A stretch of 64,000 nucleotides of DNA from Methanoculleus oceani (GTDB lineage Archaea > Halobacteriota > Methanomicrobia > Methanomicrobiales > Methanoculleaceae), in NCBI RefSeq assembly GCF_023702065.1, contig NZ_QFDM01000003.1, positions 1 to 64,000 on the forward strand, given 5' to 3'. Positions 3,175 to 17,953 of this stretch are shown here, in pieces. Below the pieces are notes generated by a model that did not search any database, was not told the DNA's origin, and saw only the letters and a program-made list of their open reading frames with translations. The translations under genes and the position numbers were made by a program. Numbering within the stretch: position 1 is the first letter of the stretch; each line of letters begins with the position of its first letter.

Positions 3175-3199
3175 AGAGCGACCAACAAGGGGGGAAAAA

Positions 3200-6100
3200 A
3201 TGAGAAAGCACGCATATTTGATACTATTGTGCGCAGTCGTCGCCATCGGACTGCTGATGCCGCCGGTTATGGCGGTAGAGATGGCACCGGGGTCACCGCA
3301 GGAATTCCTCTTCCCCGGCGGGAACGAACATCCGGCCATCGACGGCAACATGATCGTCTGGGAGTATAGCCTCCTCAACGGCCCCAGGGATATCTACTGC
3401 ATGACCACTTCCGGCAGCGACAGGCGTCCGATCACGAACGACGACGCCTCACAGGAGAGGCCGTCCATATCGGGAGACTACGTCGTCTGGCAGGACGACC
3501 GGAACGGCAACTGGGACATCTACCTCTACTCGTTCTCGACGGAAGAGACCACGCAGCTCACGAACGACACGGGCAAGCAGTGGCTGCCCGTCATCCACGG
3601 GAACTACGTCGTCTGGTACGACGACAGCGGGGGCGACACAGACATCGTCCTCTATGACATCGGCGCCGGAGACGTGAAGGCCACCATCGACTGCAATCCG
3701 GAGCTCGGCACCGACACGACCAAGTTCAAGCCCGCGGTCTCGGACGAGTACGTCGCCTGGGAAGAGGTGGACGCCGGGATCCAGCTCTACGAGATCGCCA
3801 CGGGGAACAGACAGGCGGTATCGCCGAGCACCATGGACCAGTCCTGGCCCTCGCTATGCGGCGACCTCATCGCCTGGGAGGATTACCGGTGGGGAGCGGC
3901 GTGGCAGTCCGCGATCTACCTCAAGAACATTGAGACCGGCTACGAGAGCCAGCTGACGGAGTTGAGTTACGAGCAGGTCTCGCCGACGCTCAGCGAGAGC
4001 ATCATCGCCTGGGAGGACAAGCGGGACGGACTCTGGAGCATCTACATGTACGACCTCGTCGACGGGGAGGAGGAGATGTCCGTGCCCACCACCGGCGGCG
4101 AGCAGCTCTACCCCGCCGTCAGCGGCAACACGATCGTCTGGCAGAAGAACCGGAACGAGAACGCAAAACTCTGCGTCTACACCTACGTGCCCGGCGGCCC
4201 GGTCCAGACAGTCACAGAGATAGACATCGAACCGTCCACGGCCACGATGGAGATCGGCGAGGAACTCAAGTTCAACGCCACCTGCTACGACCAGGACGGC
4301 AACATCATACCCGGCCTGAAGGTCGCCTGGTCCTGCAATAACGCCACGGTCGGGTTCATCGACCCGGGAGGCTACTTCAATGCTTCCGCAGCGGGCACCG
4401 CGACCGTCACCGCAGCGACGGCCGGCATCTCCGCGACCGCAACCGTCACCGTCAACGCCGGAGAACCGGTCCTCGATGCGATCGAGGTCGTACCGGACGG
4501 GATCACGCTCGCAATCGACGGCACACAGCAGTTCGAGGCGACCGCCTTCGATGAGTCCGGCAAGCAGATGACCGGCGTCGAGTTCGACTGGACATGCAGC
4601 AACGAGACCGTCGGCGAGATCGACGGCACGGGTCTCTTCACCGCGAAGGCCGCGGGCACCGCGACCGTCACTGCGTCGGCAGACGGCAAATCCGGAGAAG
4701 CTACTGTCACCGTCACGGATGAAGAACTGGTCGCAAGAAGCATCGAGATCGACCCGCCCGAGGCCACCCTCGCAATCGGCGACACGGTGACGTTCGAAGC
4801 GACCGTCCGCGACCAGTTCGACAACCCGATCCCCGGCGTTGCGGTCACCTGGACGAGCGACAACGCGACCGTCGGGACCATCGATGAGTCCAGCGGCCTC
4901 TTCACTGCCCATGCAGCGGGCACGGCGACTGTCACCGCGTCGGCAGGCGATCTCTCCGAAACCGCGACCGTCACGGTCAACGCCGAAACTCCGGTAGAAC
5001 CGGTCCTCGATCGCATTGAGGTCGCACCGACCGCGGTCACCCTCGCAATCGACGGCATACAGCAGTTCTCTGCGACCGCTTTCGATGATTCCGGCAAGCA
5101 GATGACCGGCGTCGAGTTCGACTGGTCGTGCAGCGACGAGACCGTCGGCGAGGTCGACGATACCGGCCTCTTCACCGCGAAGGCCGCGGGCACAGCGACC
5201 GTCACCGCATCCGCGGGCGACGCCTCCGGAACCGCAACCGTCACCGTCAACGCAGACGAACCGGTAGAACCGGAAGAGCCGGTCCTGACAAGGATCACGC
5301 TCACGCCGCCCGGAGCCACCCTGGACGTCGACGACATCCAGAGATTCATGGTGATAGGCTATGACCAGAACGACAACGTCATGCCCGCCGGTGAGATCAC
5401 CTGGGCCTGCAATGGCGGGCCCGTCGGGACCGTCGACGGGGACGGATGCTTCACCGCCCTTGCCGCGGGCACCGCGACCGTAACCGCAACGGCAGGCAGC
5501 TGCTCTGCTGAAGCAACCATCACCGTCTGCGAAGAAGAGCCTGCGCTCGCGAAGATCGCGGTCGTGCCGTTCGAGGTCACGCTCGAGGAGGGCGACACCC
5601 TGGAGTTCAGCGCCGTCGCGTTCGACCGGTTCGGCGACATCGTCGAGGACGCCGGGATCTCCTGGGAGTGCAGCGACTCGTGCGTCGGGACCATCGATGA
5701 GTGCGGCGTCTTCACCGCCCTCGACGGCGGCACGGCGACCATCACCGCATGCGCAGAAGGTGCCGAAGGAACCGCAACCGTCACCGTGAACTGCGGCGAC
5801 CCGGTCGTAACGTGCATCGTCATCACGCCGGCAGCGATCACGCTCGCCAGAAACGACACCGCGGCGTTCACCGCGACCGCTCTCGACCAGGACGGCTGCG
5901 AGATGCCCGACATCGAGATCGAGTGGGAATGCAGCGATGAGACCGTCGGCGAGGTCGACGATACCGGGTTCTTCGCGGCCCTCGCCGCGGGCACGGCGAC
6001 CGTCACGGCATCTGCCGGAGGCGTCGCCGCGACGGCGGACGTAGAGGTCACCGATGACTGCTCGGGGGTCGTGGTATCCCCGTCGGCGATCATCCTGGAC

Positions 6101-7537
6101 CCCGGGGACACCCGGCAGTTCACCGCGACCGTGTATGACCTGCAGGACAACGCAGGTTCCATAGTGGCCTGGTCGTGCAGCGATCCGGGTGTCGGCGAGA
6201 TCACCGATAACGGCCTCTTCACCGCAGTCTGCGGAGGGACCACGACCGTCACCGCAACGGTTGACGGAGAGAACGAGACCGCGACCGGAACCGCGACGGT
6301 GACCGTCCGGTCGACGGCGCCGGAGCTTACACGGATCGAGGTCAGCCCGTCCGACTTCTGCATCCCCGCAGGCCACAGCCTGACGCTCACCGCGACCGCA
6401 TTCGACCAGTACGGTTACGAAATGCCCGACGTCATAATCGACTGGGAGAGCAGCGACCCGTGCGTCGGCACCATCGATCTCTGCAGCGGCGTCTTCACCG
6501 CTCTCGAGGCCGGAGCAGTGACCCTCATCGCATCGGCGGACGGAGTCTCCGGCTCCGCCTGCGTGACCGTCGAGCCCTCGCTCCCGGTCCCGGCCTGCAT
6601 CGAGGTCAAACCGGCCACGGCCACGATTCAGACCGGAGAAACCCGGGAGTTCACGGCCACGGTATTCGACCAGTGCGAGAACGTGATGGACTGGGTCAGG
6701 GTCAGGTGGTCGTGCTCCGGCGATGATGTCGGCACGATCGACCGGGCCGGACTCTTCGCGGCGTTCACGGAAGGGTCTGCGGACGTGACGGCCTGTGCCG
6801 GCGGCGTGGAAGGAACGGCGTCTGTCACCATCACGGCGTCGCCCACGGCCGACCCCACGCCCAAACCCACACCCAACCCCGGATCGAAAAAACGCGCCTC
6901 GAGCGACGGCGGCGGCTACGCCCCCCCCAGCTTCTTCGCAGGGATCTGCGAGAACCTGAAGGGCGGCGAGACGCACACGTTCTCGGGTATCAGCGTCTCG
7001 TCGGTCGGCAGCGTTGCCATCACGGCGGCCGACAACATCCCGAAGCTGCTGATGACCGTGAAGGAGGCGAAGTGCCCCAACCTGGCGGAGCCTCCCTGCG
7101 ACCGCACCTACGAGTACGTCGAGATCGCTCTCTCGTGGGTGAGCCCGAACCAGATCGACAACGCGACGATGACCTTCACCGTCCCGGCAAAGTGGCTCGA
7201 GGAGCACGACATGCTCCCACAGGACGTCAGGCTCATGCGTTACGTCGACGGCGGCTGGCAGATCCTGGAGACCGAGGTCGTCGGTGAAGAGAACGGGAAG
7301 TACCGCTTCCGGGCAACCACCCCCGGATTCTCCACCTTCGCAATCGCTGCGATGCCGGAGAACATGACCGTAACCACGACCGCCACGGGAGAGGAGACGA
7401 ACGCCACGGCAACCATGACCGAAGAGCCGACGACGGAGCAGACGACCGCCGTGCCGACGACACCCGCGGCACCGCTCGTCTACGCGCCCCTCCTCGCCCC
7501 GCTGGCATTCCTTCTCTGGGGAAGAAGGAAGAACTAA
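3200..7537 (+). CDS. Large surface protein: TolB-like propeller, ten Big_2 Ig-like repeats, PGF-pre-PGF domain
   Basis: The start at 3200 follows AAGGGGGG and gives a clear signal peptide (MRKHAYLILLCAVVAIGLLMPPVMA). Residues 35-345 contain repeated 'VVWQDDRNGNWDIYLY' units of a TolB/WD40-like propeller. Ten Ig-like Big_2 repeats follow, each opening like 'IEVxPxxxTLxxGDTxxF' and closing like 'AAGTATVTASAG'. A Pro-rich linker leads to a PGF-pre-PGF domain ('GGETHTFSGISVSSVGSVAIT...TPGFSTFAIAAM'), then a Thr-rich stalk and a C-terminal helix ending in RRKN that anchors it. At 1445 aa it would project far from the membrane, probably as an S-layer-associated adhesin. Two Ig repeats (near 4450 and 5010) are nearly identical at DNA level, a sign of recent duplication or gene conversion. 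The ligand is unknown. Confidence 0.85.
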   Translation: MRKHAYLILLCAVVAIGLLMPPVMAVEMAPGSPQEFLFPGGNEHPAIDGNMIVWEYSLLNGPRDIYCMTTSGSDRRPITNDDASQERPSISGDYVVWQDDRNGNWDIYLYSFSTEETTQLTNDTGKQWLPVIHGNYVVWYDDSGGDTDIVLYDIGAGDVKATIDCNPELGTDTTKFKPAVSDEYVAWEEVDAGIQLYEIATGNRQAVSPSTMDQSWPSLCGDLIAWEDYRWGAAWQSAIYLKNIETGYESQLTELSYEQVSPTLSESIIAWEDKRDGLWSIYMYDLVDGEEEMSVPTTGGEQLYPAVSGNTIVWQKNRNENAKLCVYTYVPGGPVQTVTEIDIEPSTATMEIGEELKFNATCYDQDGNIIPGLKVAWSCNNATVGFIDPGGYFNASAAGTATVTAATAGISATATVTVNAGEPVLDAIEVVPDGITLAIDGTQQFEATAFDESGKQMTGVEFDWTCSNETVGEIDGTGLFTAKAAGTATVTASADGKSGEATVTVTDEELVARSIEIDPPEATLAIGDTVTFEATVRDQFDNPIPGVAVTWTSDNATVGTIDESSGLFTAHAAGTATVTASAGDLSETATVTVNAETPVEPVLDRIEVAPTAVTLAIDGIQQFSATAFDDSGKQMTGVEFDWSCSDETVGEVDDTGLFTAKAAGTATVTASAGDASGTATVTVNADEPVEPEEPVLTRITLTPPGATLDVDDIQRFMVIGYDQNDNVMPAGEITWACNGGPVGTVDGDGCFTALAAGTATVTATAGSCSAEATITVCEEEPALAKIAVVPFEVTLEEGDTLEFSAVAFDRFGDIVEDAGISWECSDSCVGTIDECGVFTALDGGTATITACAEGAEGTATVTVNCGDPVVTCIVITPAAITLARNDTAAFTATALDQDGCEMPDIEIEWECSDETVGEVDDTGFFAALAAGTATVTASAGGVAATADVEVTDDCSGVVVSPSAIILDPGDTRQFTATVYDLQDNAGSIVAWSCSDPGVGEITDNGLFTAVCGGTTTVTATVDGENETATGTATVTVRSTAPELTRIEVSPSDFCIPAGHSLTLTATAFDQYGYEMPDVIIDWESSDPCVGTIDLCSGVFTALEAGAVTLIASADGVSGSACVTVEPSLPVPACIEVKPATATIQTGETREFTATVFDQCENVMDWVRVRWSCSGDDVGTIDRAGLFAAFTEGSADVTACAGGVEGTASVTITASPTADPTPKPTPNPGSKKRASSDGGGYAPPSFFAGICENLKGGETHTFSGISVSSVGSVAITAADNIPKLLMTVKEAKCPNLAEPPCDRTYEYVEIALSWVSPNQIDNATMTFTVPAKWLEEHDMLPQDVRLMRYVDGGWQILETEVVGEENGKYRFRATTPGFSTFAIAAMPENMTVTTTATGEETNATATMTEEPTTEQTTAVPTTPAAPLVYAPLLAPLAFLLWGRRKN

Positions 7538-7729: not shown

Positions 7730-7981
7730 TCAGTACCCCGCCGGACCGCCCGGTGGGGTCTCGCCCCCCACCGGAGTCTCGACGTCCACCGGATCACCTG
7801 GTGGGGTCTCGGTCATCATCGGGGTCTCGGTCTCCATTGGGGTCTCGGTCTCCATCGGGGTTGTCACCGTCTCCGTGGGGGTCGGCAGGACGCCGTCTCC
7901 ACTCGGCATGGTGCATCCCGCGACCAGGATGCCGGCGCCCAGGATGAGGAGCACCGCCAGAAGGACTATGATGGGCCTCAT
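7730..7981 (-). CDS. Small Thr/Pro-rich lipoprotein
   Basis: The 83-aa protein has a hydrophobic signal ending in a lipobox (LVAGC, Cys about 23) and then only a low-complexity Thr/Pro/Glu tail of 'TPMETETP' units. It is nearly the same as the N-terminal half of the lipoprotein at 10444-11007 (shared 'ILVAGCTxPxGDG...PTPTETxTTP') but lacks the cupredoxin domain. It may therefore be a truncated duplicate that still encodes an anchored stalk peptide. It is the last gene of a four-gene minus-strand run whose other members all carry blue-copper domains. Confidence 0.65.
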   Translation of the reverse strand: MRPIIVLLAVLLILGAGILVAGCTMPSGDGVLPTPTETVTTPMETETPMETETPMMTETPPGDPVDVETPVGGETPPGGPAGY

Positions 7982-8176
7982 GGAAGGGGCCCATCACACA
8001 CATGTTACTTATAGTTTGTTCACCCGTGCGGGTCGCCGCCGCCAGGACCACCGTCCAGGGCACAGGACCGCCCTGCATCCCGGCCGCCCGGAGCGCGGAG
8101 GGCACCGGGGCAGGAACATTCTTCGGCTGCTTTCGGGCGCTGCGCAAGAGAAAAAGGGGAATGGTCCCCCTCGACA

Positions 8177-10285
8177 TCACTCCACGATGAACTCGCCGTT
8201 CATGTCGGGGTGGACATCGCACTGGAAGTAGTAGGTCCCGGGTTCGGACGGTGCCGTGAAGGTGTAGGTGATCTCGGCAGGCCCGTCGATGACCTCGCCC
8301 ACGAAGATCTGCTCCGCCCGGAGGGGGCTGTCGTAGACCGCAACATTGTGGGGGACGCCGTCGTCCTGGTTGTCAAAGACCATCGTCACCTCCGCCCCCG
8401 CCGGCACCGTGATCGTGCTCGTGTCGAACGCGAGGTTATCGGCGGCGATGTTCACCGTCGTCGCGGCACCGGCCGCCGTCGGGGTCGGGGTCATGTTCAT
8501 GGTCTGGTTTCCGACCGGGGGAACAACCACAGGGGTCTCGTTCCCGGTCGCTGTCGGGGTCTCGTTCCCGGTCGCTGTCGGGGTCTCGTTCCCGGTCATC
8601 GTCGGCGTGGTGCTGACATTGGTGGGCGGCACGACCCTCCAGACCCTGCCGGTGCTGGTGGAGTTATCGGGTCCTCCCACATCGTTCGTCAGCACATAGA
8701 GGTCACGTTCGGCATCCTCGCCGAACCCGCGCAGGAACATGCCCAGGGTCTCGTTCTCGCCGGAGGTGATGTTCAGCGTCTGGACCTCCCACATGGCGTT
8801 CGCCTCAGGGGTCAGGTTCGCGGCGGACTGCGGTGCGGCCCATCCCGCCGGGGGTGTGGCGGCGAGGAGAGTGCCGTTGCCCACCGTCCGGCTGTCGCTC
8901 CAGTAGCCGAAGACGTACCTGCCCTCGAGATCCGGAACGGCGGTCCCGCGGTAGACGTTCCCGCCGACGACGACAATGCCGAGGTCACGGCCGCCCTCGA
9001 AGATGGGGCCGATCAGCGGCTCGTCCAGGTAGCCGGTGGTGTTGCAGGACTCCGGCGGGGCCGTGGTGGCGTTCGGGTCGAAGCAGTGCGTGCCCTCGCG
9101 GATGTTCCAGCCGTAGTTGCCGCCGTTGTAGACGACGTCCACCTCCTCAAAGAGGTTCTGGCCCGCGTCGGCGACGAAGAGCGCGTTGTTGCCGCCGGAG
9201 TCAAAGGACATGTAGGCCGGGTTCCGGAACCCGTAGGCGTAGATCTCGGGTGGGACGGATTCGTAGGCGTAGGTGTCGAGGATCTCGGTCTGGTTCTCAG
9301 CAAACGGGTTGTCGGCGGGTATGCCGTAGAGGCTGCCTGCAAACGTCGTCCACGTCGGATCAGGCGGGTTTGCGGTCCGGTTGACGCTCATGTTCTCCGT
9401 CTGGTTCATCATCGTCACATTCTGCGGGATCGTTACGTTCCCGTCGGTGACGTTCTCCACGTCGATCCGGAGCATCTTGCCGTAGATCTTCGTGAGGTCC
9501 TGGGCGTTCCCGATACCGGGGGTGTGGCCGTTCCCGACGTCGTTCGCCCTCCCGGCATCCCCGAGCGAGATGTAGAGGAAGCCGTCGGCGGGGCTGAAGG
9601 CGAGCTGGCCGCCGTTGTGGTTATGGTAGGGCTTGTCGATGTACATCAGCACCCTCTCGGAGGTTGCGTTCACCCGGTTTTGGTCTTCGGGGTCGACCTG
9701 GAACTCGGAGATGTGGTTCGTGCAGTTCCAGTCCTCGGGAGCCTCCGGCCTTAAGGGTGCGCTGTAGAAGGCGTAGACCTTGCCGTTCTCCGAGAAGTTC
9801 GGGTGGAACGCGATCGAGAGCAGGCCCCGCTCGTCGTAGGTCGGGTTGAGGTCGACCATCTTATCCCGGAGGTCCAGGAACGGCTCGGGGAGCGTGGTCC
9901 CGTTCGCGTCGACGACCTGCACCACGCCAATCTGGTCCACGACGAAGAGCCGTCCGGTCCCGTCGTCGGGCGCCGTGATCGCAAGCGGCGAGGTGAAGTT
10001 CTCCGCGACGAGTTCAAGGCCGATCTCGGTCGTGACGTTCGGGGCGGCCGTCAGGTTCGTCCGGGACGTGTTGCCCTGGAGTTCCGCGGCAAGCAGGGAC
10101 CCGGCGTTCGTGAGGTCCGTTGCGTTGCCGCTCATGTTCTGCGCAGATGCGCCTTCTATACCGGTCGTCTGGTTTGAACTCTCATTGATGTTACTGACGT
10201 TGCTCGATCCCACCTGCGCTGCACCCGCACCCGCGATGAGTGCGAGGATCAGGAGGGATGCTATGACAGGGGTAACTTTTGTCAT
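8177..10285 (-). CDS. Exported PQQ-type sugar dehydrogenase-like propeller fused to a blue-copper (cupredoxin) domain
   Basis: Start 10285 gives 'MTKVTPVIASLLILALIAGAGA', a signal peptide. Residues about 90-520 form the glucose/sorbosone dehydrogenase propeller: 'LFVVDQIGVVQVV', 'ERGLLSIAFHPNF', 'HNHNGGQLAFSPADGFLYISLGDAG' and 'YAYGFRNPAYMSFD' are family signatures. A stalk of 'GNETPTAT' repeats, each with an N-glycosylation sequon, leads to a cupredoxin domain. Its type 1 copper ligands are visible as His in 'PHNVAVY' and Cys/His/Met in 'QCDVHPDMNGEF'. The arrangement suggests sugar or aldehyde oxidation outside the membrane with electrons passed to copper. Whether PQQ is available to this organism is unknown; no PQQ synthesis gene is in the window. 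Confidence 0.8.
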   Translation of the reverse strand: MTKVTPVIASLLILALIAGAGAAQVGSSNVSNINESSNQTTGIEGASAQNMSGNATDLTNAGSLLAAELQGNTSRTNLTAAPNVTTEIGLELVAENFTSPLAITAPDDGTGRLFVVDQIGVVQVVDANGTTLPEPFLDLRDKMVDLNPTYDERGLLSIAFHPNFSENGKVYAFYSAPLRPEAPEDWNCTNHISEFQVDPEDQNRVNATSERVLMYIDKPYHNHNGGQLAFSPADGFLYISLGDAGRANDVGNGHTPGIGNAQDLTKIYGKMLRIDVENVTDGNVTIPQNVTMMNQTENMSVNRTANPPDPTWTTFAGSLYGIPADNPFAENQTEILDTYAYESVPPEIYAYGFRNPAYMSFDSGGNNALFVADAGQNLFEEVDVVYNGGNYGWNIREGTHCFDPNATTAPPESCNTTGYLDEPLIGPIFEGGRDLGIVVVGGNVYRGTAVPDLEGRYVFGYWSDSRTVGNGTLLAATPPAGWAAPQSAANLTPEANAMWEVQTLNITSGENETLGMFLRGFGEDAERDLYVLTNDVGGPDNSTSTGRVWRVVPPTNVSTTPTMTGNETPTATGNETPTATGNETPVVVPPVGNQTMNMTPTPTAAGAATTVNIAADNLAFDTSTITVPAGAEVTMVFDNQDDGVPHNVAVYDSPLRAEQIFVGEVIDGPAEITYTFTAPSEPGTYYFQCDVHPDMNGEFIVE

Positions 10286-10443
10286 GCGAGGCAGGACAGG
10301 GTATCCGGCTTGATAAGTGTTGCGCCGGATCGACCGGCCGTACCCCGGGTCCACGGTTCAGGCGGGACCCTCATCAACACGATCCCTTCAGAAGAGGAGA
10401 GGAAGAGAGATCCGGGGGATCTCTCGTTGATGGCGGGTGCCGG

Positions 10444-11007
10444 TCACTCCACGATGAAGTCGCCGGTCATCTGCTGGGGGTGGACGTCGCACCGGAAGAA
10501 GTAGGTGCCGGGCTCTTCCGGCGCCGTGAAAGTGTAGGTGGTCGTCTCCGGGCCGGTGATGGTCTCGCCCACGAAGATCTCCTCGGTCGCGGAAGAGTCC
10601 GTGTAGACCGCAACATTGTGGAGGATGCCATCGTCCTGGTTGTCGAAGACCATCGTCACCTCCGCCCCCGCCGGCACCGTGATCGTGCTCGTGTCAAACG
10701 CCATGTTATCGGCGACGATATCGACTGTCGCGACCTCTCCGCCCGCTGCGGTCGTTGCTGCCGTTGTCACGCCCGTTGTCTCTGTGGCTGCCGGGGTTTC
10801 GGTCCCGGTCGGTGTTCCGGTCTCGAGTGGCGTCTCGGTCATCATCGGGGTCTCGGTCTCGAGCGGGGTCTGGGTCTCGGTCGGGGTTGTTATCGTCTCC
10901 GTGGGGGTCGGCTGGGTGCCGTCTCCACCCGGCGCGGTGCATCCCGCGACCAGCATGCCGGCGCTCACGATGAGGAGCGCCATAAGAAGGACTGCATTGG
11001 GCCTCAT
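10444..11007 (-). CDS. Lipoprotein with a C-terminal blue-copper (cupredoxin) domain
   Basis: Start 11007 gives 'MRPNAVLLMALLIVSAGMLVAGC', a lipoprotein signal with the modified Cys at about residue 23. A Thr/Glu/Pro stalk of 'TETPxE' units follows, then an about 92-aa cupredoxin. The copper ligands are visible as His in 'LHNVAVY' and Cys/His/Met in 'RCDVHPQQMTGDF'. Compared with the two neighbouring copies there is one extra residue between His and Met. The protein would be a membrane-tethered single-electron carrier, a plausible acceptor for the two flanking propeller enzymes. Its stalk and signal are shared with 7730-7981. Confidence 0.82.
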   Translation of the reverse strand: MRPNAVLLMALLIVSAGMLVAGCTAPGGDGTQPTPTETITTPTETQTPLETETPMMTETPLETGTPTGTETPAATETTGVTTAATTAAGGEVATVDIVADNMAFDTSTITVPAGAEVTMVFDNQDDGILHNVAVYTDSSATEEIFVGETITGPETTTYTFTAPEEPGTYFFRCDVHPQQMTGDFIVE

Positions 11008-11123
11008 GAGAGAGGCGATCCCGTACATGCTATTTATAATTATCCGCGCGGAGAGGTCCGCACAGGAGAAAGGGGTGGGAGGAGCGGGACAATCCCGCTC
11101 CCCGCACGCCGGTGCGTTCCGGA

Positions 11124-13220
11124 TCACTCCACGATGAAATCGCCGTTCATGGAGGGATGGACGTCGCACTGGAAGTAGTAGGTCCCGGGCTCTTCAGGAG
11201 CGGGGAAGGTGTAGGTGATCTCGGCGGGCCCGGTGATGATCTCGCCCACGAAGATCTGCTCCGCCCGGAGGGGACTGTCGTAGACCGCGACGTTGTGGGG
11301 GATGCCGCCGTCCTGGTTGTCGAAGACCATCGTCACGTTCGCCCCCGCCGGCACCGTGATCGTGCTCGTGTCGAACGCGAGGTTATCGGCGGAGATGTTC
11401 ACCGTCGTCTCGTTCCCGGGTACCGTCGGGGCCGGAGTCACGTTCACGGTTGCTGTCGGGGTCACGTTGACCGTCGGGGTCGGTGTCATGTTCACGGTTG
11501 GCGTCGGCGTGACGTTCATCGTCGGGGTCACGTTCCCGGCCGGGGGCAGGATAGTCGGGGTCACGTTCACTGTCGGGGTTGGGGTCACGTTCCCCATCCC
11601 GCCGGGACGGAGCGCAATGACCTGGGCCATCTCCCCGACGCCGCAGGGCCAGACGATGGTGTCGTTCGCAACCGCAGGCCAGGCGTTGATGCCCGCAGGA
11701 GCGGTGAAACTCCAGACCTCTTCACCGGTCGTCGTGTCGAATGCGTAGATCGTCCCGTTGAAGGTCGCCGTGAAGACCAGGTCGTTGACGACCGTCGCAC
11801 CGCCCACGTTGATGGAGTCAAGTTTCTGATCCCAGAGGATCTTGCCGGAATAGGCCTCAACGGCCACAAGCCCGCCCGTCCCCTCGGGGACCGGCTGGAT
11901 CTCAGCCTGGGGCAGGCCCTCGACGCCCAGGGAGAGCGAACTTGTCGGCGACCAGATGGTGTAGAGGTCGACGTAGGGCACGTAGACCGTGCCGTTCGCG
12001 TAGGCCATCGGGGTCTCGACCCCGCCGAGCGCTCCCGGATAGACCGTGGTGTTGCCGGGCGGCAGCGCCGCAAGCTGGTCGTTCTCGTGCCTGCCCACGA
12101 CGGCGATCCAGAGGATGGCTCCGGTGTCGCGGTTGAAGGCATACACCCTCCCCATCTTCCCGGCGCTGATCACGACGTTCTGGTCCTCTCCGCTGACGTT
12201 GGCGCTGGTGAGGATCGGCGAGATCTGGAGATCGTGGTCGAAGAGGTCGTGCGGAAGCACCTGGGTGAACCAGACCATATCCCCGGTCGCATGGTCGAGC
12301 GCCATCATGGTGTTCGTGTAGAGGTTCGGGCCGGGCCGGCTTGCGGCGTTCGGGAACTCAGGAGTCCCCGCGAAGGGTGCCGGGTTCGCTATGGGCCAGT
12401 AGGTGATGCCCGTTTCCGTATCCACCGCCGGGGTGTACCAGACACCGCCGCCGCTGTTGACGTCGGGGTTGCCCCAGATGTTCACCGGGTCGTCGACCGT
12501 GCTGAAGTTCCACGCGATCTCGCCGGTCTCCTGGTCGAGGGCATAGATGTACCCGACGGCGCCGCCCCGGTAGAAGACGTCGCCGCGGCCGGGCACCGTC
12601 GAGGTGTAGACGAGGTTGTCGTAGACCGTGGGCTGGATGTCGATGCCCTCGCCGATGATCACTCCCTCCAGGGGCGTGGTGTTGATGAGCTGCATCGACC
12701 AGAGTTCTTCACCGCTCGATGCGTCCAGCGCCGCGACGGAGAACGGGTCGCTCGTCACGAAGACCTTGCCCCACCCGACCGCCGGCCCGTTCGGCCCGGT
12801 CACGGTGGTGTTGTTGTAGATCTTCTCCCACTTCACCGAACCGTCGGCGAGGTTCAGGGCGTAGGTGTCGGCGTAGAGGTCCTGGAAGTAAACGGTGTCC
12901 CCCATGATGATGGGGTTGCTGCTCGCGCCGCCGAAGATGCCGGTGGCGTTGATCTCGAACGTCCAGGCGATCGCCAGATCGTTTACATTGTCCTTATTAA
13001 TCGATACGTCGGTCGTTGCGCGTGTATTCTCGTAGTCTCTGTTCGGAAGCGGCCAGTCGGCCGTATACTGCATGATCTCCGGCGGGACTCCCTCCGCCGC
13101 CTGAAGGTCAGTTGTTTCGTTGCTCATGTCGCTCGCGTTCTCTTCCTGGGCGACCGCCCCGGAAAAGAGCATTAGGCACCCTAGAAGGGTGATGATCAGG
13201 AGCCTTGACAATCTCTGCAT
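11124..13220 (-). CDS. Exported PQQ alcohol dehydrogenase-like propeller fused to a blue-copper domain
   Basis: Start 13220 (MQRLSRLLIITLLGCLMLFSGAVA) gives a signal peptide. The next about 500 residues are a quinoprotein propeller: 'DWPLPNRDYENTRAT' is the classic entry motif, followed by repeated 'G.ixWxf' tryptophan-docking units such as 'TGEIAWNFS', 'DGSVKWEKI' and 'TGEEVWSFTAP'. A stalk of 'NVTPTPTV' units connects to a cupredoxin that is almost identical to that of 8177-10285 ('PHNVAVYDSPLRAEQIFVGE', 'QCDVHPSMNGDF'). It probably oxidises a small extracellular substrate; no catalytic specificity can be read. Large quinoproteins are unexpected in a strict anaerobe. Confidence 0.8.
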   Translation of the reverse strand: MQRLSRLLIITLLGCLMLFSGAVAQEENASDMSNETTDLQAAEGVPPEIMQYTADWPLPNRDYENTRATTDVSINKDNVNDLAIAWTFEINATGIFGGASSNPIIMGDTVYFQDLYADTYALNLADGSVKWEKIYNNTTVTGPNGPAVGWGKVFVTSDPFSVAALDASSGEELWSMQLINTTPLEGVIIGEGIDIQPTVYDNLVYTSTVPGRGDVFYRGGAVGYIYALDQETGEIAWNFSTVDDPVNIWGNPDVNSGGGVWYTPAVDTETGITYWPIANPAPFAGTPEFPNAASRPGPNLYTNTMMALDHATGDMVWFTQVLPHDLFDHDLQISPILTSANVSGEDQNVVISAGKMGRVYAFNRDTGAILWIAVVGRHENDQLAALPPGNTTVYPGALGGVETPMAYANGTVYVPYVDLYTIWSPTSSLSLGVEGLPQAEIQPVPEGTGGLVAVEAYSGKILWDQKLDSINVGGATVVNDLVFTATFNGTIYAFDTTTGEEVWSFTAPAGINAWPAVANDTIVWPCGVGEMAQVIALRPGGMGNVTPTPTVNVTPTILPPAGNVTPTMNVTPTPTVNMTPTPTVNVTPTATVNVTPAPTVPGNETTVNISADNLAFDTSTITVPAGANVTMVFDNQDGGIPHNVAVYDSPLRAEQIFVGEIITGPAEITYTFPAPEEPGTYYFQCDVHPSMNGDFIVE

Positions 13221-13369: not shown

Positions 13370-13714
13370 ATGATTCGCACGAAACGGATCTACGCGGAGC
13401 CCTCGGAGGACGACGGGGCCCGGGTCCTCGTCGACCGGCTCTGGCCGCGAGGTGTCTCGAAGGAAGAGGCGAGACTCGACCGGTGGGAGAAGGACCTTGC
13501 GCCGGGCAATGAACTGCGCCGGTGGTTCGGGCACGACCCGGCGAAGTGGGAGGAGTTTCTCCGGCGCTACCGGGCCGAACTCGAGGGTAAGGAGGAGGCG
13601 CTCGACCGGCTCCGGCAGGAGGCGAACGATGCGACCGTCACGCTCCTCTACGCCGCGAAGGACGAGGAACAGAACAACGCCGTGGCGCTGAAGCGGTATA
13701 TCGAAGAGAGGTAG
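13370..13714 (+). CDS. DUF488-family protein
   Basis: The 114-aa protein starts 'MIRTKRIYAEPSEDDGARVLVDRLWPRGVSKEEARLDRW', the standard opening of short DUF488 proteins, and contains 'FGHDPAKWEEFLRRY' and 'VTLLYAAKDEEQNNAVALKRYI', both typical. Length is normal for the family. The function is unknown; the fold may bind nucleic acid or phosphate. It lies 47 bp before the cooS-like gene on the same strand, but nothing ties the two functionally. Confidence 0.88.
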   Translation: MIRTKRIYAEPSEDDGARVLVDRLWPRGVSKEEARLDRWEKDLAPGNELRRWFGHDPAKWEEFLRRYRAELEGKEEALDRLRQEANDATVTLLYAAKDEEQNNAVALKRYIEER

Positions 13715-13761
13715 GCCCCGGTGCCGACACCTACTTATGGTTGTGGGAGAGGTCACTCCCC

Positions 13762-15672
13762 ATGTCCATGGAGAACGACAGGATATCCTACCACGATTCG
13801 GTAAGGACCGTCTACGAGCGGCTCAAAGCGGACGGCATGTCCAATGTCTGGGACCGCTACGAGGCCCAGGGGCTCGGGACCGACCCCGACCGGCGGTGCG
13901 CCTTCTGCCAGGCAGGCGCACGGTGCGACTTCTGCTCGAACGGCCCCTGCCGGGCCGACGCCAGCCGGAACCACCGGGGAGTCTGCGGGATCAACGCCGA
14001 CGGCATGGCGATGCGGATGATGCTTCTGCGAAACGTCATGGGAGCGTCGAACTACCACTTCCACGCCCAGCAGGCTGTCCGGACCCTCCGGGCAACCGCG
14101 GAAGGCAAAACCCCCTTCTCCATCGCGGAGCCGGAGAAACTCCGGACGTTTGCAGGACGGCTCGGGATCGATACCGGCGGGAGCGACGCGGAGGTCGCCC
14201 TCCGGCTCTGCGACTTCGTGGAAGAGGACTTCCACCGGTTCACCCATGAGCCGAGCCGGATCGTGGAGCGGCTCGCCCCCCCGGAGCGAAAAGAGGTCTG
14301 GAAACGGCTCAAACTCTTCCCGGGCGGGATCTACGGGGAGACGATCGTCGATACCGCCTCCACCCTCACGAACGTCGACGGGTGGTTCGCGAGCCACGCC
14401 ATGCGGGCGATGCGCCTCGGCGTCGCGATGGCCTACCAGAGCCAGATCGTGCTTGAGTACATCCAGGACATCCTCTACGGCATTCCCCGGCCGCACCCCA
14501 TGCGGGTCGACCTCGGGGTGCTCGACCCCGACTACGTCAACGTCCTCCCGAACGGCCACGAACCCTTCCTCGGGTTCGCCCTCATCGACCTCGCCCGCAC
14601 CGACGAGTGGCAGGAGAAGGCAAAGGAGGCGGGGGCAAAGGGCCTCAGGATCATCGCCAACATCGAGACCGGACAGGAACTGATCCAGAGGAGAGAGATG
14701 GACGACGTCTTCTACGGCTACACGGGCAACTGGATCATGCAGGAGGCGGTCCTCGCCACCGGGGCGGTGGACGTCTTTGCCGCCGATATGAACTGCTCGC
14801 TCCCGCTCGACCCGCTCTACGCCGAGAAGTACCGCTTCAAACTGATCCCGGTCAGCGAGGTCGTGGTCTTCGAGGGCGGGACGGAGAGGCTCGACTACGT
14901 CCCGGAGGAGGCAAAGGAGCAGGCGGCGGCCCTCCTCGAGATGGGGATCGAGAACTTCAAGGAGCGGCATACCACGATCGACGCGATCCGCGGCCTTCCC
15001 GTGCGGGAAGCGGTCGTCGGGTTCGCCCCCGAGAGCATCGTCGCAGCGCTCGGGGGGAGTCTCGACCCGCTGCTTTCCGCCGTCAAGGACGGGACCATCC
15101 GGGGTATCGTCGGGCTCGTCTCCTGCACCACCCTCCGGGACTACGGGCAGGACGTCCACACCGTCGCGGTCGCGGAGAACCTGATCGCCCGTGACATCCT
15201 GGTCCTCGGGATGGGGTGCGGGGTTGCGGGCCTCCAGGTCGCCGGGCTCTGCTCCCCGGAGGCGAAGGAGAAGGCCGGGCCGGGGCTGAAGGGGCTCTGC
15301 ACGGCGCTCGGGGTGCCGCCGGTGCTCGGATTCGGGACCTGCACCGATACCGGCAGGTGCGCCGACCTCCTCCTCTCGGTCTCCGACGCTCTCGGCGGCG
15401 TCCCCCTCCCGGACCTTCCGGTCGCCGTCGCCGCCCCGGAGTACATGGAGCAGAAGGCGACGGTCGACGCACTCTTCGCGCTCGCGCTCGGGCTCTACAC
15501 CTACGTCAACCCGGTCCCGACCGTGACCGGCGGGCCGGACCTCGTCAAACTCCTCACCGAGGACCTTCCCGGCATCACCGGCGGGGTGCTCCACGTCGAG
15601 ACGGACGCCACCGCGGCGGCGGAGGGGATACTTGCGCACATCGAGGCGAAGCGGACGAAGCTGGGGATATAG
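13762..15672 (+). CDS. cooS: Anaerobic CO dehydrogenase (CooS)-like protein with an altered C-cluster site
   Basis: The 636-aa product aligns by eye with CooS over its length; the start is set by GGAGAGG nine bases upstream. B-cluster cysteines are present (Cys55, 58, 63, 75 in 'CDFCSNGPC...GVC'). Most C-cluster ligands are present: His266 (NGHEP), Cys345 (DMNCSLP), Cys455 (VSCTT), Cys486 (GMGCGVAG) and Cys527 (GTCTDT), plus Lys565 (EYMEQK). The ligand equivalent to Cys295 of Carboxydothermus CODH-II, normally in a 'CCTxNE' motif, is replaced by 'IETGQE' (Ile301-Glu302). The D-cluster motif is Cys46-x2-Cys49, and the proton-tunnel His run is reduced to 'HFH'. No cooF or cooC gene is adjacent. 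It may catalyse another reaction or hold a different cluster. Confidence 0.85.
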   Translation: MSMENDRISYHDSVRTVYERLKADGMSNVWDRYEAQGLGTDPDRRCAFCQAGARCDFCSNGPCRADASRNHRGVCGINADGMAMRMMLLRNVMGASNYHFHAQQAVRTLRATAEGKTPFSIAEPEKLRTFAGRLGIDTGGSDAEVALRLCDFVEEDFHRFTHEPSRIVERLAPPERKEVWKRLKLFPGGIYGETIVDTASTLTNVDGWFASHAMRAMRLGVAMAYQSQIVLEYIQDILYGIPRPHPMRVDLGVLDPDYVNVLPNGHEPFLGFALIDLARTDEWQEKAKEAGAKGLRIIANIETGQELIQRREMDDVFYGYTGNWIMQEAVLATGAVDVFAADMNCSLPLDPLYAEKYRFKLIPVSEVVVFEGGTERLDYVPEEAKEQAAALLEMGIENFKERHTTIDAIRGLPVREAVVGFAPESIVAALGGSLDPLLSAVKDGTIRGIVGLVSCTTLRDYGQDVHTVAVAENLIARDILVLGMGCGVAGLQVAGLCSPEAKEKAGPGLKGLCTALGVPPVLGFGTCTDTGRCADLLLSVSDALGGVPLPDLPVAVAAPEYMEQKATVDALFALALGLYTYVNPVPTVTGGPDLVKLLTEDLPGITGGVLHVETDATAAAEGILAHIEAKRTKLGI

Positions 15673-16430: not shown

Positions 16431-17117
16431 ATGGAAAACGGACCCAGGGGAGCAATCCTCCAGAGAGACGGCGCGTCATACGCGATCGTGCCGAGAACGC
16501 CCGCAGGAATCGTCAGCCCGGAGCACCTGAAGAGCATCATCAAGGTCGTCAGGCGCTACGACATTCCCGTCATCAAGATGACGTCGGGGCAGCGAATGGT
16601 GCTCGTGGGCATCAAAGAAGAGGACATCGAGAGCATCTGGAACGAACTCGGGATGACCGTGGGCCAGGCGACCGCGCCCTGCGTCCATTACGTCCAGGCA
16701 TGCCCGGGGACGGTGACCTGCAAGTACGGCAAGCAGGACTCCCTGGGCCTCGGGCTCGAGGTCGAGGAACTCTACCAGGAGATGGACCTGCCGGCAAAAC
16801 TCAAGATGGGGATCTCCGGGTGCCCCCGGTGCTGCGGCGAGAGTTACCTCCGGGATATCGGCATCGTCGGAAACGCGAAAGGCTGGACGGTCGTCTTCGG
16901 GGGCAACTCCGGCGGCCGCCCCCGGATCGGCGATCTTGCCGCAAAGGATCTCACCAGAGAGGAGGCGCTCGACCTGGTCCGCCGGCTGCTCGAGTACTAC
17001 CGCGAGAACGCCAGACCGGGAGAGCGGACCGCACGGTTCGTCGAGCGGGTCGGCTTTGACGCCGTCAAAAAGGACGTCCTGACCTTCGCCCCCTACATAC
17101 CGCTGGATTCTGTCTGA
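16431..17117 (+). CDS. Small siroheme/[4Fe-4S] sulfite-reductase-like protein
   Basis: The 228-aa protein has the N-terminal ferredoxin-like half-domain ('PRTPAGIVSPEHLKSIIKVVRRYDIPVIKMTSGQRMVLVGI') and then the siroheme-[4Fe-4S] ligand set: 'CPGTVTC' (C-x5-C) and 'CPRCC' (C-x3-C). This is the small low-molecular-weight sulfite reductase type common in methanogens (the Fsr/alSir superfamily), without ferredoxin or F420H2 modules. Known relatives reduce sulfite poorly or have unproven substrates, so sulfite or nitrite reduction is only likely. The next gene converges and encodes a TrmB regulator five bases away. Confidence 0.87.
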   Translation: MENGPRGAILQRDGASYAIVPRTPAGIVSPEHLKSIIKVVRRYDIPVIKMTSGQRMVLVGIKEEDIESIWNELGMTVGQATAPCVHYVQACPGTVTCKYGKQDSLGLGLEVEELYQEMDLPAKLKMGISGCPRCCGESYLRDIGIVGNAKGWTVVFGGNSGGRPRIGDLAAKDLTREEALDLVRRLLEYYRENARPGERTARFVERVGFDAVKKDVLTFAPYIPLDSV

Positions 17118-17122
17118 TCCGG

Positions 17123-17953
17123 TTACGGGGACGAGGGCCGCAGACCGGCCCCGTCTCCCGGCGGGCCGTCGATGCAGTCGGCGTTCGCGATCATCCGGTT
17201 GACGAACTGCCGCTGGACGCAGGAGATGAACGGCAGGGTGATAACGACGGCGTTCCTGACCCCGTCTTCGCGGTAGACGATCATGCAGACCCGGTCGTCG
17301 GCGATGAAGATGTAGTCGAGCAGGAACGCCGACCCGTCCACAGGGATCGGCCCGCAGTAGATCTTCTCAAAGATGTTCTCCTGGAAGAAGGTGCAGAACG
17401 GCTTCGGGACGTAGAGGGAGGCATCTCCGAGCGGCTTTCTGATCCCGCGCTTCCCGTTCGGAAGGAGGACGCTTACGGGGTGCTCCCTCGACGCATCGGC
17501 GATCAGCCGGGCGAACTCGCCGATCTCCCGGTAATCCAGGCAGACGACGGCGAGGTCGCGGGTGACGCCGCTAGCGAGCGATTCGGCGTGGCGCCGGATA
17601 CTCCACTCCCCCTGCACGTACCAGATCGGCGAGTTCTTCGACCGGGCGTCGAGCGAGAGGGCGTCAAGACCCTGCACCGCCGCCGTCGCCGCGGCGTCGA
17701 CGGCACTTTTTAAGTGGTGGATGACGACGGCGGGCTCGGCCGGGATGTAGACGTGGGGGTTCCCTCGCCGGACGGTGATGAAACCCCGGCCGGCAAGCCC
17801 TTCGGCGATGTCGTAGACCCTGGGGCGCGGGACGCCGCTGGCCTCGTGAACCTGGCGGGCGCTCCCCTCCCCGATCCCGACAAGGACGGCGTAGACCCGG
17901 GCTTCGTACTCCGTCAGCCCGAGCGCCGTGAGGCTCCGGATCAGGTCGTCCAT
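17123..17953 (-). CDS. TrmB-family transcriptional regulator
   Basis: Residues 1-75 form the TrmB winged helix ('LTALGLTEYEARVYAVLVGIGEGSARQVHEASGVPRPRVYDIAEGLAGRGFITVRRGNPHVY'), followed by a dimerising helix and a C-terminal sensor region with 'IWYVQGEWSIRRHAESL' of the TrmB effector domain. The 276-aa length is usual. Such proteins bind sugars or metabolites and switch transcription. It converges with the siroheme gene and diverges from the DUF2115 gene at 18022, so the 68-bp gap between 17953 and 18022 is the likely place of control. The effector cannot be read. Confidence 0.87.
   Translation of the reverse strand: MDDLIRSLTALGLTEYEARVYAVLVGIGEGSARQVHEASGVPRPRVYDIAEGLAGRGFITVRRGNPHVYIPAEPAVVIHHLKSAVDAAATAAVQGLDALSLDARSKNSPIWYVQGEWSIRRHAESLASGVTRDLAVVCLDYREIGEFARLIADASREHPVSVLLPNGKRGIRKPLGDASLYVPKPFCTFFQENIFEKIYCGPIPVDGSAFLLDYIFIADDRVCMIVYREDGVRNAVVITLPFISCVQRQFVNRMIANADCIDGPPGDGAGLRPSSP

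Follow-up and report, generated by a model that had tools for sequence, protein, structure and literature searches.

Cupredoxin-fused beta-propellers at a Methanoculleus chromosomal site that in sister species holds genes for heme synthesis and cytochrome bd-like proteins

A window of 64,000 nucleotides from Methanoculleus oceani (GCF_023702065.1, contig NZ_QFDM01000003.1, positions 1 to 64,000) was analysed, and four minus-strand genes were confirmed as a set at 7730-13220. The first-pass annotation had described an exported set in a methanogen, in which two different propellers carry C-terminal cupredoxins with lipoproteins between and beside them. Pfam matches and gene coordinates bear this out, export signals were seen and the host is a Methanoculleus. 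The two propeller fusions, here ADHcu and GSDHcu, their neighbours and the flanking anchors are as follows.

3194..7537, plus strand: surface protein with Big_2 repeats, the island's conserved right anchor
7730..7981, minus strand: stalk-only lipoprotein, 83 aa, without cupredoxin; no family in the Pfam search
8177..10285, minus strand: GSDHcu, with signal peptide, GSDH/HHIP-like propeller, linker and C-terminal cupredoxin
8180..8476, minus strand: GSDHcu cupredoxin domain, residues 604-702
8618..10018, minus strand: GSDH-type propeller of GSDHcu, with H223, D243, R354-N355 and G375 invariant
10444..11007, minus strand: cupredoxin lipoprotein, with lipobox LVAGC, Thr/Pro/Glu stalk and cupredoxin (10447-10746)
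11124..13220, minus strand: ADHcu, with signal peptide, PQQ-ADH-like propeller, Thr/Pro/Asn linker and C-terminal cupredoxin
11127..11423, minus strand: ADHcu cupredoxin domain, residues 599-697, His...Cys-x2-His-x2-Met
11598..13085, minus strand: beta-propeller of ADHcu, ADH-like (residues 45-540 in the 697-aa reading)
13370..13714, plus strand: protein that we take to be DUF488-like, left anchor; no NCBIfam match
13741..15672, plus strand: CooS-type anaerobic CO dehydrogenase catalytic subunit, left anchor (TIGR01702, 692.5 bits, cut-off 478)
16431..17117, plus strand: small protein resembling siroheme nitrite/sulfite reductases, a left anchor in some genomes
17123..17953, minus strand: TrmB-like regulator, left anchor

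ADHcu matched PF01011 at 160.7 bits (cut-off 26.7), GSDHcu matched PF07995 at 98.4 bits (cut-off 25), and the cupredoxins of ADHcu, GSDHcu and the lipoprotein matched PF13473 at 39.8, 46.6 and 45.0 bits (cut-off 27), all far above chance level; PF00127 was also over its cut-off for the window cupredoxins. Judging by its alignment to the first ~60 codons of the cupredoxin lipoprotein, the stalk-only lipoprotein is a truncated paralogue of it. N-glycosylation sequons number 22 in ADHcu and 33 in GSDHcu. Elsewhere in the window genome a GSDH gene is followed by a separate cupredoxin gene, and fused and split forms of the pair, as predicted from the genes, coexist there. A scan of viral_contigs returned one weak relative alone (65 residues matched), and no earlier description of the island was found in a limited literature search.

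The type-1 ligands His...Cys-x2-His-x(2 or 3)-Met are kept in all three window cupredoxins, as had been stated from the letters, the lipoprotein having the spacing Cys-x2-His-x3-Met. They are intact in 98 of 102 distinct copies, the remaining four being truncated at the end of a locus, fragmentary or frameshifted. Among 40 further genomes outside Methanoculleus, the copies found with tblastn were intact in 36 of 36, and the motif was present in two of the other four. The fused domains of ADHcu and GSDHcu show an identity of 85/99 at the protein level and 264/297 at the nucleotide level, for which the earlier term 'near-identical' is too strong. In a domain tree of 33 rows with weak support (stars on 6 of its 30 inner branches), the closest neighbour of each window domain is the domain of the same type from other Methanoculleus; a recent exchange of the window copies is therefore improbable, and the recent domain shuffling first proposed finds no support. 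Of 199 Methanomicrobiales genomes, 99 have a PF13473 match over cut-off. This half of the genomes, with ligands intact in nearly all copies, contrasts with a genome survey in whose available text all 21 anaerobic archaea examined are classed as copper non-users (PMC2147054).

The propeller of ADHcu falls short of two family models, with 181.7 bits against TIGR03075 (PQQ-dependent alcohol dehydrogenase; cut-off 480.05) and 142.8 bits against TIGR04528 'acido-empty-quinoprotein' (cut-off 650). Its pocket was compared in an alignment of 21 methanogen and Chloroflexota-type sequences, four of them bacterial. W260, N278, D327, D329, K354, H377, E401 and N511 are invariant in 21/21, so that the Asn (N278) and the Asp (D327, plus the lanthanide-type D329) are kept throughout; with such invariance from methanogens to bacteria, the site is under selection. 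The position of the Glu metal ligand is occupied by R, Q, A, E or K, with E in a single sequence of the 21. The vicinal Cys-Cys and Arg, which we take to lie over PQQ in enzymes of the 1kb0/1kv9 type, belong to a loop that is missing in the alignment to these two structures. Measured by the PQQ/Ca contact positions that we assume, half of the contacts are absent, the Glu ligand and the Cys-Cys/Arg loop included. The first-pass annotation had proposed a check of the catalytic PQQ/Ca residues, with loss of all of them as the outcome that would speak for structural use only; the loss is partial, since W260, N278, D327, D329 and K354 remain and the Glu ligand and Cys-Cys/Arg loop are gone. A canonical quinoprotein reading of ADHcu is rejected on the pocket residues together with the family cut-offs, and the propeller is, on sequence grounds, not a canonical PQQ enzyme.

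In a Foldseek search with the AlphaFold model of ADHcu (pLDDT 61.5), the best 30 matches were all PQQ-type alcohol or sorbose dehydrogenases, with E values reaching 1.5e-31, in keeping with a PQQ-ADH type of fold, presumably eight-bladed, for this weak model. Several loops of this model, some with pocket residues, have pLDDT <50, and GSDHcu gave a poor model (pLDDT 43.1); therefore no structural claim is made on the pocket. GSDHcu scored 52.4 bits against TIGR03606, below the cut-off of 434.6. Its invariant residues are shared by 8 of 8 sequences; R354-N355 align with the Arg-Asn of sGDH, and H223 is presumably, by its motif, the equivalent of the sGDH catalytic His. By phmmer the protein is nearer to HHIP, which is not known to be an enzyme, than to the dehydrogenases. 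This proximity and the two weak structure models were counted against the explanation preferred below.

The new result is the genomic context. The set occupies a single site in 12 genomes, with CooS/DUF488 on one side and the Big_2 surface protein on the other, and in two sister species the same site carries genes for heme synthesis (Ahb) and genes resembling cytochrome bd subunit I instead, both cargo types sharing the same flanking anchors. PF01654 (bd-like) is present in 10 of 199 genomes (6 of 35 Methanoculleus), with no match in the window genome. In all six Methanoculleus carriers a cupredoxin or GSDH match is found 152-367 bases from the nearest copy, and none of their copies is further than 2.2 kb from such a match; since the six are related, the adjacency does not represent six independent events. 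In the bd-like proteins, motifs resembling the heme-ligand His and the ExxRxPW stretch are retained. In the PDB search the first bd-like protein had no match and the second a weak match to bd quinol oxidase (E 4e-4). ADHcu-type genes (>80% identity, 8 genomes) and bd-like genes (6) co-occur in 0 of 35 Methanoculleus, against about 1.4 expected by our own estimate, a difference that is not significant; the missing overlap was nevertheless counted against a direct link between ADHcu and the cytochrome. In G153 only, a divergent ADH-like cupredoxin fusion (36% identity) directly precedes the bd-like gene.

A radical-SAM/SPASM (PqqE-like) maturase for the set was considered and rejected, as the 484-aa gene that adjoins the island in some relatives looks like a heme-synthesis enzyme (AhbD at 287.5 bits, all below cut-off). 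This gene occurs in G004, a genome without a cupredoxin match, and the window genome is without a close ortholog of it; the set therefore apparently does not need it.

The propellers might instead be cofactor-free surface scaffolds (adhesion or S-layer partners) showing copper domains, with the set buffering or sequestering copper. The loss from ADHcu of assumed PQQ contacts, the Glu ligand and Cys-Cys/Arg loop among them, would suit such a role, but W, N, DxD, K, E401, H377 and N511 are invariant in 21/21 across two domains of life; likewise GSDHcu resembles HHIP, yet keeps R354-N355 where HHIP differs. The numerous sequons, the surface proteins as neighbours and the sub-cut-off similarity to TIGR04528 (142.8 vs 650 bits) fit a scaffold as well, whereas the co-located bd-like cytochrome and heme genes do not, and type-1 copper sites serve electron transfer rather than storage. 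We consider this explanation rather unlikely.

Electron import by the set, in the manner of the direct interspecies (DIET) or other extracellular electron transfer that has been proposed for Methanosarcina and Methanothrix with their surface quinoproteins and cupredoxins, is judged improbable. The window holds no link from the set to intracellular electron entry, the anchor CooS borders the other cargo too, and we know of no methanophenazine in Methanomicrobiales. In favour of import, the available text of PMC6315138 reports M. barkeri cupredoxin and PQQ-domain genes to be up in DIET, and that of PMC10470525 reports good expression of SqpA and copper-binding surface proteins in Methanothrix; against import, the M. 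barkeri authors themselves remark that known cupredoxin potentials (150-680 mV) are more positive than uptake would lead one to expect, though they regard uptake as conceivable (PMC6315138, same portion).

PqqC was not over cut-off in the window genome (0 of 14 control genomes pass, so sensitivity is unproven) nor in either bacterial genome bearing the same propeller protein, and PqqE was over cut-off in 0 of 199 Methanomicrobiales and likewise 0 of 14 controls, which leaves it without a positive control. With these results and the lost pocket contacts of ADHcu, the earlier label 'quinoprotein' does not stand as written. The copper transporter search that had been suggested yielded two CopA-type ATPases over cut-off in the window genome, where no multicopper oxidase was found. 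That both propellers are ordinary PQQ dehydrogenases loaded with PQQ scavenged from neighbouring bacteria is very improbable: PQQ alcohol dehydrogenases are the best solved relatives of ADHcu in sequence and fold, and GSDHcu matches PF07995 and keeps catalytic-type residues, but both fall far below the enzyme models (181.7 vs 480 and 52.4 vs 434.6 bits), ADHcu has lost PQQ-contact residues, the window genome yields no PQQ synthesis gene over cut-off, and PqqC passes in neither bacterial host.

We tentatively prefer to read the set as a copper-based redox module that is exported from the cell and occupies, as interchangeable cargo, a single Methanoculleus chromosomal site. The sequences show export signals, a pair of cupredoxin-fused propellers whose type-1 copper ligands are complete, a tethered cupredoxin and conserved anchors with alternative cargo. 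Taken with the cytochrome and heme genes of the sister species, the set points to a small extracellular copper-based electron chain in a group otherwise taken to manage with neither copper nor cytochromes. Each propeller would bind a metal or quinone-like cofactor in its non-canonical pocket and oxidise an extracellular reductant, perhaps a sugar for the GSDH type; electrons would pass singly to the propeller's own cupredoxin, and the lipoprotein cupredoxin would ferry them to the membrane. The bd-like cytochrome, in genomes possessing one, may be the acceptor and reduce O2 or another oxidant for protection, not energy. As the window genome has neither bd-like cytochrome nor multicopper oxidase, no acceptor was identified there. 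The tension with strictly anaerobic hydrogenotrophy, raised at first pass, is judged real.

A bolder form, which we regard as unlikely, would give 'cytochrome-free' hydrogenotrophs a quinone-free exported respiratory chain from propeller dehydrogenases with a novel cofactor site through blue copper to an Ahb-supplied CydA-CydA'-like pair (CydAA' in archaea being an existing idea), transferable as an oxygen-defence cassette at a fixed site.

If the cytochrome link is true, some supposedly cytochrome-less methanogens own an oxidase cassette fed by copper proteins, with consequences for how methanogens in soils and digesters live through exposure to oxygen. Besides, the pocket, invariant and not of the PQQ type, is common to Chloroflexota-type bacteria and marks out a protein family whose cofactor could be sought directly.

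Among known systems, ADHcu resembles PedH (6zcw), XoxF (6dam) and the quinohemoprotein ADHs 1kb0, 1kv9 and 1yiq in fold by Foldseek, and its NPAP, RPG-NLY and Asp-x-Asp segments align with PedH. It differs from the lanthanide-type and quinohemoprotein ADHs in having no Cys-Cys/Arg loop, no Glu metal ligand and other residues at the positions that we take to be E55, T159 and N394, and it bears a cupredoxin where the quinohemoprotein-type comparators bear heme c, at about 20% identity. Chloroflexota-type bacteria (L013, L095, L096, L012) have a related propeller of 35-55% identity with the same invariant pocket, and in L012, L013 and L095 a cupredoxin tail, and differ from ADHcu in their bacterial hosts. 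GSDHcu shares the PF07995 propeller with sGDH (1c9u, 3a9g), to which its RN and GGNYGW segments align, but scores closer to HHIP and has insertions and a cupredoxin tail. The window cupredoxins share PF13473/PF00127 with the amicyanin/plastocyanin type and, where their spacing is Cys-x2-His-x2-Met, also the spacing we assume for amicyanin; they remain far short of the amicyanin equivalog cut-off (27.8 vs 110.2). The surface quinoproteins (SqpA) and cupredoxins linked to DIET in Methanosarcina and Methanothrix are likewise exported PQQ-like and copper proteins of methanogen hosts, but of other orders. According to the available text of PMC6315138, the M. barkeri genome lacks PQQ synthesis genes. 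In heterotrophic marine Thaumarchaeota, according to the part of PMC7300363 at hand, the PQQ dehydrogenases have no Cys-Cys motif and some keep DxD; unlike Methanoculleus, these hosts are aerobes with PQQ synthase and a heme-copper oxidase, and blue copper has been proposed there as the acceptor for the dehydrogenases.

The window is the beginning of contig 3 of a 2.46-Mb genome (3 contigs, 99.24% complete), and its closest named relatives are Methanoculleus. The exported propeller and cupredoxin set described at 7730-13220 in the first-pass annotation is real and well placed, comprising four minus-strand genes, of which the first three listed have Pfam propeller or cupredoxin domains:

11124-13220, minus strand, ADHcu: PQQ-type propeller with C-terminal cupredoxin
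10444-11007, minus strand, cupredoxin lipoprotein
8177-10285, minus strand, GSDHcu: GSDH propeller with C-terminal cupredoxin
7730-7981, minus strand, stalk-only lipoprotein, aligning with the cupredoxin lipoprotein gene over its initial ~60 codons

The stalk-only gene is, judged by sequence, a truncated paralogue of the cupredoxin lipoprotein gene. ADHcu and GSDHcu begin with signal-peptide-like stretches and carry 22 and 33 N-glycosylation sequons, respectively. Because a TATA-like stretch lies ~20-32 bases 5' of each start codon, the four genes look like separate leaderless units, not one operon. A 418-aa exported-looking protein elsewhere in the genome (G000:C1:205000-210500; L169:1489-2742) has a weak cupredoxin match of 25.9 bits, below the cut-off of 27.

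Profile alignment of ADHcu with quinohemoprotein alcohol dehydrogenases and PedH spans the whole propeller, and the top 30 Foldseek matches of its model (moderate, pLDDT 61.5) were all PQQ-type alcohol or sorbose dehydrogenases, with BamB ranking lower. ADHcu retains W260, N278, D327, D329 and K354, which we take to be the stacking Trp, the metal-ligand Asn, the catalytic Asp, the extra Asp of lanthanide enzymes and the Lys/Arg position, respectively. The Glu metal ligand and the Cys-Cys/Arg loop, roles we likewise assume, are lost, and the residues differ at the presumed E55, T159 and N394 positions. Among 21 ADH-like sequences (17 methanogen, 4 bacterial), W260, N278, Q319, D324, D327, D329, K354, H377, E401, T402, D479 and N511 are invariant and H323 varies in one, while the former Glu position holds R, Q, A or K, and E once. 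Since this set is invariant in 21/21 while the former Glu position varies, the pocket is a conserved site of its own kind, not a decayed PQQ site; this conserved non-PQQ pocket is part of what is new. PqqC was not found in the window genome and did not exceed its cut-off in the two bacterial genomes with related proteins, and PqqE was above cut-off in 0/199 Methanomicrobiales genomes; none of the control genomes exceeded either cut-off, leaving the sensitivity of both searches unproven. The earlier label "quinoprotein" needs correction, as ADHcu lacks part of the PQQ contacts and neither synthesis protein was found above cut-off.

Full-length ADHcu-type propellers occur in 8/35 Methanoculleus and nine other Methanomicrobiales among the 199 genomes searched, with further, more remote ones at 31-36% identity. 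Matches of 51-55% identity were found in two genomes related to a Dehalococcoidia record; one of this group (L095) has a similar cupredoxin tail. Acquisition of the propeller by transfer from Chloroflexota-like bacteria is suggested because the methanogen sequences nest among bacterial ones in a midpoint-rooted tree; the node joining L095 with 16 methanogens has support of 91/83, under the starred level.

When solved proteins were compared with GSDHcu using phmmer, HHIP was closest (1.4e-26) and the first dehydrogenase-type protein followed at 2.7e-10. R354-N355 of GSDHcu align to the Arg-Asn of sGDH, whereas HHIP has other residues there, and H223 and D243 are invariant in 8/8 relatives. The window genome has another GSDH gene, with a standalone cupredoxin gene directly behind it (C1:303-305 kb); the pair is the split form of the fusion. 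At L166:9547-11820, a GSDH propeller is fused to a fasciclin domain in place of the cupredoxin.

The cupredoxin domains of ADHcu and GSDHcu share 85/99 residues and 264/297 bases. Recent domain shuffling, previously proposed, is unsupported: in a tree of 33 domains (well-supported inner branches 6/30 only), the window ADH domain is closest to ADH domains from two other Methanoculleus, and the GSDH domain to a GSDH domain from another. Past exchange inside the genus is possible.

The set occupies a common site, mapped with window, G092 and L007 proteins against 29 sequences, with TrmB/CooS/DUF488 on one side and a Big_2 surface protein on the other. Anchors on both sides, one or more per side, were found in 12 genomes (window, L007, L008, L009, L010, L014, G063, G092, G151, G084, G096, G058; L193 and L010 denote a single place, and G063, G092 and G151 were read from overlapping stretches). 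Between the anchors, cupredoxin genes and one or more propellers are present in 12/12; five of these genomes have ADHcu there and nine have GSDH. Two of them, G092 (a single 2.62-Mb contig) and G151, carry in place of ADHcu cupredoxin, AhbD-like, AhbA, AhbC-like, cupredoxin lipoprotein and cytochrome bd subunit I-like genes, followed by GSDH. The G092 cytochrome matches (PF01654) scored 51.8 and 61.5 bits (cut-off 26.2) and AhbA 141.8 (cut-off 140), with the radical-SAM genes below their cut-offs; the G063 island has Ahb genes without the cytochrome. This exchangeable island with cytochrome and heme genes is part of what is new. In four Methanoculleus it holds a large multi-PAS sensor gene (L195:8065-10263, L196:4950-7547, L194:7750-10347, L167:1407-4025; Pfam scan of the L167 copy only). 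A CooS-type CO dehydrogenase catalytic subunit (window 13741-15672) often adjoins the island. In several relatives a 484-aa radical-SAM/SPASM gene (L007:11141-12592) lies between island and Big_2 protein; the window genome has no ortholog, and G004 has the gene without cupredoxins. The window genome also carries an Ahb-type heme-synthesis set (G000:C3:346565-349729; L165), distant from any cupredoxin, although no cytochrome bd-like gene was found in this genome.

To our knowledge, Methanoculleus is usually described as cytochrome-free. PF01654 was above cut-off in 10/199 genomes. Six carriers are Methanoculleus; in each of them a cupredoxin or GSDH match sits 152-367 bases from the closest copy, and no copy is more than 2.2 kb away from such a match. 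The four carriers outside the genus have no copy that comes within 6 kb of any listed match. In G153 the cytochrome gene directly follows a divergent ADH-like propeller-cupredoxin fusion. Most copies read have His and ExxRxPW motifs like the ones in bd oxidases (several were cut by locus ends and the pattern missed some). Paired subunit I-like genes beside cupredoxin genes, mostly with Ahb genes, were seen at L166:5994-9419, L167:8764 onward and the G145, G142, G124 and G153 loci.

The favoured reading of the window set is an exported dehydrogenase-to-copper module. Electrons would leave it at high potential, which would suit delivery to an oxidant more than uptake for methanogenesis, and in sister genomes the bd-like cytochrome would be a natural acceptor. 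Against this link, no genome among the 35 Methanoculleus has both ADHcu and the cytochrome gene, the six carriers are related to one another, and the window genome yielded neither PF01654 in the profile search nor a multicopper oxidase. The set may instead serve extracellular electron exchange; in the excerpted text of PMC6315138, M. barkeri genes raised during DIET include a cupredoxin, a PQQ-domain and a cytochrome bd-type gene, PQQ synthesis genes were not found, and another cofactor was suggested. Alternatively, it may be copper scaffolding.

All three window domains have His...Cys-x2-His-x(2 or 3)-Met, which bears out the intact copper ligands reported initially. The pattern is kept in 98/102 distinct domain copies from all loci fetched to that point, the exceptions being cut by locus ends (L004, L097), a short fragment (L057) and a frameshift (L009/L026). 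Beyond the genus, one region per genome was sampled in 40 genomes chosen from the PF13473-positive list; tblastn located 36/40, with ligands intact in 36/36, and of the remaining four the motif was visible in two and two were not resolved. PF13473 was above cut-off in 99/199 Methanomicrobiales genomes; the survey of Ridge et al. 2008 (PMC2147054, in excerpt) classed 21/21 anaerobic archaea in its sample as copper non-users. For a dehydrogenase-to-copper module, the excerpt of PMC7300363 offers a comparison in heterotrophic Thaumarchaeota, where quinones or blue copper were suggested as electron acceptors of PQQ-type enzymes that lack Cys-Cys and in some cases have DxD.
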